64,000 bases of DNA from Chrysophaeum taylorii (lineage: Eukaryota > Sar > Pelagophyceae > Pelagomonadales > Pelagomonadaceae). Shown in pieces: positions 58,970-62,586 of this stretch; the stretch's first letter is position 1; each line of letters starts with the position of its first letter. Where the stretch lies: contig JAQMWT010000531.1 in NCBI GenBank assembly GCA_029834535.1, forward strand, positions 1-64,000, read 5' to 3'. The position numbers and the translations under genes were made by a program. The notes beneath the pieces are model-generated. The model saw only the letters and a program-made list of their open reading frames with translations, was not told the origin of the DNA and ran no database searches.

Positions 58970-60034
58970 ATGAAGCCGCCCGAGCCCGAATATTGCTTGC
59001 GTGCGCACAACGAGTCGGTGACGTGCGTGCGGTTCGTGGGGTCGAAATTGGCGTCGGGCGACACCGCGGGGCAGGCCAAGTTGTGGGATCTCGTGCTGCA
59101 GCGACCTATCGTGGAATGGGCGTCGTCGACGGAGGGTCTGCTGGAGGTGTTCGAGCACGCGGGCGGGCGGGAGGTGTTGACGCAGGCGCGCGACGGGAAA
59201 ATCAAGTTGTGGGACATCGAACGGCTGTCCTCGCCCGAGACGGCTCTTTCGAGGTCGATCCACACCGACGCGTTTCACTTCGCGCGGTGCAGCGTCGCGA
59301 GGCGAGGCGCGGTACCGGATGGCGCGTCGAACGCGGCTTTCGACGCTCCCGACGCTTCGGACTACTTGGTCCTCGCGCCTTCCGAGCCCATGGAGTCGAT
59401 GACGCTCTGGGACACGCGGTGCGAAACGTACGCGCAGCGACTGGTGCTCTCGGAAAGCGACAACAAGGCGCTCGGGATGGTGATGAGCTCCAAGCTGTGG
59501 CTTCCGGCCGCGCGAGGGGGACGACCGCTCGCCCTCATCGGCTACGAAAGCGGCGATGTCGTCGCCTGGGACCTCACCAAGATGATGCCGCACCTCCACT
59601 CGCGGTGCACGGTCTTCAAGTCGCCGGTCATGGGTCTCGATATCGACGAGGCTGGCAGCCGCCTCTTCGCCGCCGGCATCGAACCAAAGGCGCGGGTGTG
59701 CAGAATAGACGACCACCGCATCGTTCCCCGCGGGCCGGCCCTCCCGGTGAACTGCGAGGCTTCCGAGCACGCGAAGGACGGCGTCGGCCAACTTGCGCTC
59801 CGTCCCGACGGCAAGCTCTTCGCGACCGGGGGCTGGGACTACCGGATCCGGCTCTTCTCGGCCAAGCCCCCCAACTACAGGCCCCTCGCCGTGCTCCGGT
59901 ATCACGACGCCTCTGTCAACGCCCTCGACTTCTCTCCGGACTCGGCTCTCCTCGCGGCGGGCTCGAAGGACACGAAAATCTCTGTCTGGCGACTCTACCC
60001 CCCCCCTTGTGTCGAAAAGAAGAAGAAGACGTAG
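58970..60034 (+). CDS. GNB1L: WD40 protein GNB1L / ASA1-like
   Basis: A 354-residue seven-bladed WD40 protein. Family marks: [14 protein letters not shown] at the start, [31 protein letters not shown], and the end block [50 protein letters not shown]. This is the GNB1L (animals) or Asa1 (fungi) family, a partner of the TTT (Tel2-Tti1-Tti2) complex and HSP90 pathway that matures PIKK kinases such as TOR and ATM. The length is close to human GNB1L (327). Intronless. Its stop is 35 bp upstream of the next ATG. Confidence 0.88.
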
Positions 60035-60069
60035 TAAATAATAATAATAATAGCCCTAGAATTGTACGG

Positions 60070-62586
60070 ATGTTGATGTTCAAGTTGTTGGTGGTGGTGG
60101 TGGTGATCGGCGGCGGCGCCGCGGTCGAGAGAACGCCGCGACGGACCGCAGCGCGCGCCGTCGGCAAAGAAGGGTTTGAAGAGGAGGAGGCCAAGAAGAA
60201 GAAGAAGAAGAGCGTCGGGTGCTTGATCGTGGGGCTCGGGGGGAACAACGGCGTGACGGTGGTCGCCGGGCTGGTGGCGAACCGGCGCAAGGTCGAGTGG
60301 GAGGGCTCGAAACGGAAGTGCGAGGCCGACTGGACGGGGTGCGTGACGCAGCAGGCGTCGAGGCGCGAGGCGTACGAGCTGTGCGCGTTCGAGGACGCCA
60401 AAATTGGAGGTTGGGACGTTCGGGAGACGCGATTGGGCGACGCGCTCGTCGAGGCGCGGATTCTCGACCCGACGCTCGCGTCGGAGGTGCGGGACGAGAT
60501 GAACACGATGGGCGTGTGGCCGGGGGTCTGGGACCCCGAGTATATCGGGGAGACGCAGCACGCGACGGCGACGCGGACGATCGAGGGGTCGATTCCCGAG
60601 AAGCTCGAACGCGTGAGACGAGACATCCGCGGCTTTCGGGAGGGCGTCGACGGACACACGACGGTGGTGTGGTCGGCGAGCGTCGAGGCCCCCTCGGCCC
60701 TCGACCCGGAGCTCGTCTCGACGGCAGATCGGCTGCTCGAGACGCTTTCGGATTCTCGAATCGAACGCGTCCCCCCGAGCCTCGTCTACGCCGCGGCAGC
60801 CGCGCTCGAGGGCTGCAGCTTCGTGAACGGCGGATCCCAGGACACGATTTGCCCCGGGCTCGAGGAGTTGTTTGCGCGGCACGGCGGGTACTGCCTCGGG
60901 ACCGATTTCAAGGCCGGCCAGACCAAGTTCAAGTCGGCGGCCGTCGAGTACCTCCAAGCTCTCGCCCTCCGCGTCAAGGTGGTCGCGAGCTCGAACCACC
61001 TCGGGAACAACGACATGAAGTCGCTCCTCGGGCGCCCCCAGCGCGACGCCAAGCTCCGCGTTAAATCCGACATCTTTCCGCCGGACTCGACGATCGAAAG
61101 TCACGTCGTATCGGTCATGTACGCGCCCTACGTAGGCGACGAAAAGCGAGACTTTGTCGAGTATACGAGCGAGGCCTTTCTCTCGCAGCTCCACACGATG
61201 GTCACTTACACGCGCTGTTCGGATTCGGTGCTCTGCGCGCCCCTCATAATCGACGCCTGCGTCTGGTGCGACGCCTTCCGACGTCGCCGAGTTCCCCGCT
61301 CCGAGGTCGAGAAAGCTCTCGCTTACCTCTTCAAGGTTTCTTCTTCTTCTTCTTCCGAAAACAGCTACTACTTTTTTGCCCAAATGCGCGACCTCGAGGA
61401 GGCGTGCCGCCAACATCTTCGTCGACGACGCGCGACGACGACGGCGGGCGAGCCCCCTTTGGTCGCGTGCGCGGGGCTCGCGTGCCTCGACCTCGAACTC
61501 GGGAGAGCGTCGACGCCGTCGTCGCTCGAGAGCATCGCGACCTTCCGGGGCACGACGGAGAAACCGGGGGGTTCCGCGCCCCAGGTCGCCACGGCCCTCG
61601 CGGGCCTCGGCCAGCGTTGCGTCGTCGTTTCCAACCTCGGCGACGACGCGCCCGGAGCCAGGCTCCGAAGCCTTCTCGCGGAGATCGGCGTCGAATGCCT
61701 CGGGAGGGGGGGGTCGACCGGGGTCGCCGTTGTACCCGTCTTCGAGGCAGGCGGCCGCGGCTGTTACTTTGATCCCGGCGCCAACGCGGACTTCGGCCCC
61801 GAGGACGTCGCCGCCGCCCTTAAAGATCTCGAAGACGACGACGTCGCGGCGCTTCACGTCGGATACCCTCACCTCCTTCCCTCGCTCTGCGGAGACGCGC
61901 TCGCCGACGTGCTCGTCGACTCTGCTGCCAAATCCCTCCTCACGAGCCTCGACCTCAACGGCATCCAGCCCCACCACCGCCTCGGCGACGCCGTGCTCCC
62001 GAAGAGAGCCACGGCCGCCGTCGACGTCCTCCACGCGAACCGCCGAGAGGCCGCCACCCTCCTGGGCCAAACCGACGCGAACCTCTCGGACCTCGCGCGC
62101 GACCTCGCGCGCCAAAGCGGCGCGGCCCTCGTCTCCGTCACCGACGGCGCCAACGGCGCCGTCCTCGTCGTCGCCGACGCCGACCGACTCGGTGCCTCGT
62201 CCATCCCGCTCGCGTGGGCCTCCTCCGAAGCTCGCGTCCCTGCCTACTCGCCCGCCGGGGCGACCACCGTCAACGCCAACGGCGCCGGCGACGCCTTTGT
62301 CGCGGGACTCATCACCGGCGCCCTCCGCGCTAAGTCCGACGACGCGACCTCCTTTTCTCTCGATCACGTCGGAAAGCTCGCCGCGCTCGCGGCGTACCTC
62401 CGCGTCGTAAGAGCCCCGCCGATGCACCTCTCCGACATCGTCGACGCCCTCGACGCCGCGGACGCCGGCAACCGCTCCATCCTCCTCGACGACGAGTCCG
62501 CTCATTCCTCTTTCGTCCTGCCTCCCGAGCTCCCCATCGCCGAACGCCCCCCTCCGCGCCAGGACGCGCCGCCTGGCCTCCCCTAA
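60070..62586 (+). CDS. Fusion: inositol-3-phosphate synthase plus PfkB-family carbohydrate kinase
   Basis: One 838-residue frame with no intron. Residues 1-18 form a hydrophobic signal; 19-47 are basic and acidic low-complexity. At about 48-445 is a complete inositol-3-phosphate synthase: NAD site GLGGNNG at 55-61, then [45 protein letters not shown], and the late block [18 protein letters not shown]. It converts glucose 6-phosphate to inositol 3-phosphate. From about 465 a PfkB-family kinase follows: [37 protein letters not shown], and the signature NANGAGDAF with catalytic Asp741. PfkB kinases phosphorylate sugars or inositol; plant myo-inositol kinase belongs here. The two domains are linked by about 20 residues with a Ser run. 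The signal suggests the secretory route or plastid. A single transcript is not proven, but no stop or splice site separates them. Confidence 0.85.

Follow-up and report, generated by a model that had tools for sequence, protein, structure and literature searches.

A 64,000-nucleotide stretch of Chrysophaeum taylorii (Pelagophyceae; GenBank assembly GCA_029834535.1, contig JAQMWT010000531.1, positions 1 to 64,000, forward strand), here called the window, carries a gene in which an inositol-3-phosphate synthase (MIPS) and a kinase of the PfkB family share one reading frame. We estimate a probability of about 0.5 that the gene encodes a true two-domain, bifunctional protein, in which the only detected, fast-evolving MIPS of the organism is joined C-terminally to a ribokinase-fold (PfkB) kinase. 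A strongly diverged MIPS with a sugar-type kinase is the likeliest of the explanations weighed below, and a MIPS half turned into a scaffold is its main rival. The fusion has one frame, both domains, a predicted fold for each half, the key kinase motifs and five MIPS positions taken as catalytic. Inositol lipids and inositol phosphates both depend on MIPS for their committed step.

The initial annotation of this DNA had described a fusion in a single uninterrupted frame. This was borne out by the translation, 838 amino acids with one terminal stop, and by a domain search of each half (hmmscan, Pfam), which gave two MIPS domains and PfkB, all above their cut-offs (Table 1; all coordinates are window positions unless a locus label, L with a number, is given). 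NAD_binding_5 scored 193.7 bits (cut-off 25, E 7.1e-57, profile positions 1-321 of 321), Inos-1-P_synth 67.7 bits (cut-off 27, E 1.2e-18, 1-107 of 107) and PfkB 91.3 bits (cut-off 25.8, E 9.2e-26, 4-275 of 302). The linker contains neither an in-frame stop nor an ATG. The GC content of third codon positions (GC3) is 0.68-0.92 across all 14 bins of the gene (at most 60 codons each), with the minimum at the joint. An open frame alone is weak evidence here, because long frames arise easily in GC-rich sequence such as this: the frame of the fusion is open upstream to 58936 (1216 amino acids), and an antisense open frame of 836 amino acids (59995-62505, minus strand) overlaps most of the gene. The antisense frame had no Pfam match at E <= 0.01 and is probably a by-product of codon bias. 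What lifts the fusion beyond chance is that a single frame carries two domain matches separated by just 17 residues, with neither stop nor ATG between them and with high GC3. The MIPS-PfkB fusion is real as far as the DNA shows, and the joint looks real. The ATG at 60070 is the putative start codon.

Table 1. Features of the fusion gene and its upstream neighbour (window positions)
Feature	Position	Strand	Remark
WD40-repeat gene	58970..60034	+	upstream neighbour, ends 35 bases before the fusion ATG
MIPS-PfkB fusion coding sequence	60070..62586	+	838 amino acids and a single terminal stop, uninterrupted translation
N-terminal segment, residues 1-48	60070..60213	+	a hydrophobic run followed by basic residues; resembles a signal on visual inspection only
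MIPS NAD-binding/catalytic domain (PF07994), residues 49-447	60214..61410	+	Pfam match
Inos-1-P_synth domain (PF01658), residues 283-386	60916..61227	+	Pfam match
NHLGNND, residues 309-315	60994..61014	+	N309 and D315 correspond to yeast N350 and D356
QRDAKLRVK, residues 324-332	61039..61065	+	counterpart of the KEISK loop
Val363 (yeast D416)	61156..61158	+	Asp in 85/85 reference MIPS
Ala437, site of the K489-type lysine	61378..61380	+	by alignment; no lysine nearby
Linker between synthase and kinase domain matches, residues 448-464	61411..61461	+	17 residues / 51 bases
PfkB kinase domain (PF00294), residues 465-757	61462..62340	+	Pfam match
GGSAPQ, residues 500-505	61567..61584	+	GG retained; Gln replaces the Asn of most relatives
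NRRE (NXXE motif), residues 657-660	62038..62049	+	by alignment
GAGD (GXGD catalytic motif), residues 738-741	62281..62292	+	by alignment

The host genome (70.8 Mb, 697 contigs), which in size and gene content is consistent with a eukaryote, was searched with profiles in six frames, exon by exon. PF01658 and PF07994 gave one match each, both at the fusion locus. The PfkB profile matched 13 times, the fusion included; the kinase half used as query found only itself at E <= 0.01. According to the bifunctional explanation the fusion would be made as one polypeptide, whose MIPS half would still turn glucose 6-phosphate into inositol 3-phosphate; we infer this activity from the lack of any further MIPS match, together with the need of an inositol-producing eukaryote for such an enzyme. 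A phosphate would be moved by the C-terminal kinase from adenosine triphosphate onto some other small molecule (a polyol, a sugar or a nucleoside), and the fusion would keep two steps around the hexose-phosphate/inositol node close together at a fixed 1:1 ratio. The sole detected MIPS joined to a sugar-type kinase would couple inositol synthesis to another phosphorylation, and the substrate of the kinase would show which.

Judged by its identities, the MIPS half can be described as eukaryote-like but divergent. It is 39%, 37%, 36% and 32% identical to the solved eukaryotic enzymes of Thermochaetoides, rice, C. elegans and yeast, respectively, which are 58-65% identical to one another, and 29% identical to the Bacteroides enzyme. 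The fold predicted for this half agrees with the solved structures of MIPS (this comparison drew on 34 of 80 loci). GLGGNNG, GQTK and NHLGNND are present, and the equivalents of yeast D320, N350, D356, K412 and D438 are retained; K359 of the fusion, the K412-type lysine, is Lys in 85/85 references. We take these five positions to be catalytic, in part on the basis of published reports.

Other observations on this half favour the main rival, in which the MIPS half has ceased to work as a synthase and instead provides an active kinase with a scaffold, a sensor or an arm for oligomerisation, inositol coming from outside or from a synthase that was missed. Conservation was assessed against 80 bacterial and five solved sequences, which gave 49 testable columns conserved to at least 98%. 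The MIPS half deviates at 12 of these columns, the five solved enzymes and the 80 bacterial sequences (leave-one-out) at 0-3 each. A stricter count, limited to columns with all four eukaryotic references, found deviations at 9 of 43 columns in the MIPS half, at 0-3 in the solved enzymes and at 0-2 in the bacterial sequences; excluded from it were three of the twelve columns (412, 414 and 424), which lie past the eukaryotic reference segments. T247V, G357M and D416V (yeast numbering) fall on columns that are invariant in 85/85 references. Of the nine changes, some are mild substitutions (V/I, I/V, A/C), and one, at position 324, depends on the alignment. The initial annotation had stated that both halves keep their key motifs: the four motifs that it quoted do occur in the translation, but for the MIPS half the statement holds only in part, given the changed columns and the Ala at the K489-type lysine.

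The lysines of the active site were inspected separately. A gap-free alignment of the KEISK loop yields KLRVK and keeps the K-x-x-x-K spacing of yeast K369/K373; the 86-row alignment places Q324 at K369. An early idea, the loss of two catalytic lysines, was dropped once the gap-free alignment had kept K-x-x-x-K, although the 86-row alignment leaves the point ambiguous. The position of yeast K489 was placed from a presumed yeast sequence, and the eukaryotic reference segments end before the site. Bacterial MIPS have Lys at 437 or 441 in 77/80 cases, and 3/80 have neither, which tempers the weight of its absence from the fusion. The C-terminal tail of the eight bacterial rows that were printed is also absent, its place being taken by the linker and the kinase. 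In rice MIPS, about 72% of the activity remained when the homologous lysine, K468, was deleted, and about 7% when the KEISK pentapeptide was removed (PMC5614600). In the Thermochaetoides enzyme the same lysines are placed along the active site (PMC11348189).

Several points have to be set against the bifunctional explanation. Besides the 12/49 and 9/43 deviating columns and the three substitutions at invariant columns, they include the lysine loop, which on present alignments cannot be aligned with certainty and whose surroundings (residues 310-327) have a predicted local distance difference test (pLDDT) score below 50 in the model. The rice authors point out that their result conflicts with work on yeast by Jin et al., where changes of single lysines were more damaging (PMC5614600). 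An intron-rich second MIPS could be missed by a six-frame, exon-by-exon search; the place of the kinase half in the tree, on a long branch, is unsure; and the fusion was not found in a second organism, either in the viral contigs or at the best 80 of at least 582 bacterial/archaeal MIPS stretches.

From these residues the activity of the MIPS half may be lost or changed, or the half may still be working; it appears to be under weaker or different constraint. A scaffold role, which we regard as possible though tentative, fits the finding that the kinase half is changed at just 2 of 14 conserved columns, but not the retention of the five catalytic positions, the intact frame with high GC3 and the lack of a further MIPS match in the genome. 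Under the bifunctional explanation the protein offers an opportunity to study how an enzyme keeps much of its active-site core while about one fifth to one quarter of the family's nearly fixed positions have changed.

The best fold matches of the kinase model were of the ribokinase/YdjH type (19 of the 72 PfkB open reading frames found were used). Its NCBIfam ribokinase score was far below the cut-off (47.3 against 299.65 bits); six of the 12 other host PfkB matches were covered by the same check. A tree was built from the fusion and 22 hand-picked references (23 rows), with nine of the 12 other host matches included and L012-L014 omitted; the only characterised inositol kinase in it was a segment of the T. 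kodakarensis enzyme, TM0415 being absent. Grouping with ribokinases was not rejected by the approximately unbiased test (p-AU 0.465), but the fusion sat on a long branch without a supported place.

The initial annotation had raised the possibility that the kinase phosphorylates myo-inositol and shares a phosphate pool with the synthase, so that the de novo and salvage routes to inositol 3-phosphate would meet on one protein. The generic N-terminal Asp (GLACLD) is retained, as this proposal expects. In the T. kodakarensis enzyme inositol is contacted by Q136 and R140 (PMC5931981). The fusion kinase has N and P at this Gln/Arg pair (Q141/R145 in TM0415), grouping with the T. kodakarensis enzyme and its bacterial relatives was rejected (p-AU 0.0129), and the fusion kinase fell outside a 97/97-supported clade of five rows that contains that enzyme. 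An inositol 3-kinase was also absent among the 50 fold matches listed for the kinase model, which proves nothing. In all likelihood the fusion kinase does not belong with the characterised archaeal/bacterial inositol 3-kinases; neither its pocket nor the tree supports such a role. We consider a myo-inositol 3-kinase unlikely; the caveat of the initial annotation, that another substrate such as a sugar is just as possible, has become the better interpretation.

A bacterial gene pair speaks for the inositol 3-kinase proposal. Flanks of the 80 best bacterial/archaeal MIPS loci were examined with the PfkB profile (55/80 loci were at least 11 kb long, and the profile recovered 14/14 known PfkB loci). 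A PfkB gene was present at one of them, L076 of a Saprospiraceae genome (4980-7124), where MIPS and PfkB share a reading frame and the first base of the PfkB frame directly follows the stop codon of MIPS; the gene upstream resembles by eye a CDP-alcohol phosphotransferase. The L076 kinase matched the structure of the T. kodakarensis inositol 3-kinase with E 1.4e-12, its top match being an uncharacterised Chlorobium PfkB protein (6.1e-15), and it has GHVCHD and QGWMR with the Q...R inositol pair. Through this pair of genes free inositol may be salvaged for bacterial inositol lipids. In the order to which L076 belongs, 14 of 298 genomes had an inositol-kinase-like gene (E <= 1e-20), and MIPS lay within the 2.9-3.8 kb examined at one of these 14 loci, the query's own. 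MIPS and inositol kinase as a common bacterial operon was rejected on these counts (1 of the best 80 MIPS loci, 1/14 carriers). MIPS beside an inositol-type PfkB kinase, in the same order, occurs in bacteria but rarely.

Two further roles of the kinase were considered. In the first, which we find doubtful, the kinase feeds the synthase by making a hexose 6-phosphate beside the MIPS active site. Its nearest matches are sugar or nucleoside kinases, and the substrate of MIPS is glucose 6-phosphate (PMC9246714); the pocket, however, offers no evidence for glucose. In the second, which strikes us as quite improbable, inositol 3-phosphate would be handed directly to the PfkB domain and receive a second phosphate there, the MIPS half having been reshaped for docking. 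If true, a single polypeptide would give access to inositol polyphosphates by a route independent of lipids. To our knowledge the PfkB family is not known for phosphorylating inositol 3-phosphate.

An artefact of the gene model or assembly, in which an overlooked splice, stop or base error in the linker hides the boundary between two separate proteins, is very improbable: the fall of GC3 to 0.68 in the joint bin, where a serine run also lies, and the GT...AG pairs near the joint speak for it, but the domain matches are just 51 bases apart without ATG or stop, and an intron is not favoured because all ten frame-preserving GT...AG pairs (>30 bases, within 61290-61480) would excise part of the MIPS domain match.

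Further copies were sought in viral contigs, which were scanned with each half and with the MIPS alignment. No second copy of the fusion was found in them; the MIPS alignment gave a single MIPS locus, L211, whose flanks contained no match to PfkB. Literature searches of open-licence papers found no title or abstract start naming a MIPS-PfkB fusion. Two other PfkB fusions were seen in the host genome. In L005 (769-3384) a single frame of 871 amino acids encodes a ribokinase-like domain and, after it, a TIM barrel resembling xylose isomerase (PF01261). In L010 (1441-3126, minus strand) a frame of 562 amino acids joins, by eye, a pseudouridine-phosphate glycosidase to a PfkB kinase, a type of fusion that we take to be known from eukaryotes.

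The WD40-repeat gene and the fusion stand head to tail, and their spacing would permit a dicistronic transcript. A scan for promoters and terminators with bacterial patterns gave nothing useful. The region 1-25081 of the window contains repeat frames that are very long (up to 3946 amino acids) and rich in Ser, Gly and Thr, together with repeated blocks and a GC skew near 0.2.

The fusion can be compared with four known systems. With eukaryotic MIPS/INO1 it shares both Pfam domains, the predicted fold, the three sequence motifs and the five catalytic positions, and it differs in its 32-39% identity, the changed columns, the replaced K489-type lysine and the attached kinase. With respect to ribokinase-family kinases (ribokinase; E. 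coli YdjH, 3h49/3in1; the Rhizobium sugar/adenosine kinase 4e3a), the N, K and N columns of ribokinases, which we take to be ribose contacts, are C, S and Q in the fusion. The myo-inositol 3-kinases (T. kodakarensis, 4XF6/4XF7; the pyrophosphate-dependent T. maritima TM0415) have the PfkB superfamily and the generic N-terminal Asp in common with the fusion kinase, and the T. kodakarensis enzyme also GAGD, whereas the fusion is without the Q...R inositol pair and lies outside the T. kodakarensis clade. The L076 pair has the same two families, gene order and reading frame, but consists of two genes split by a stop codon, with a kinase that belongs to the inositol-3-kinase type and to another branch than that of the fusion.
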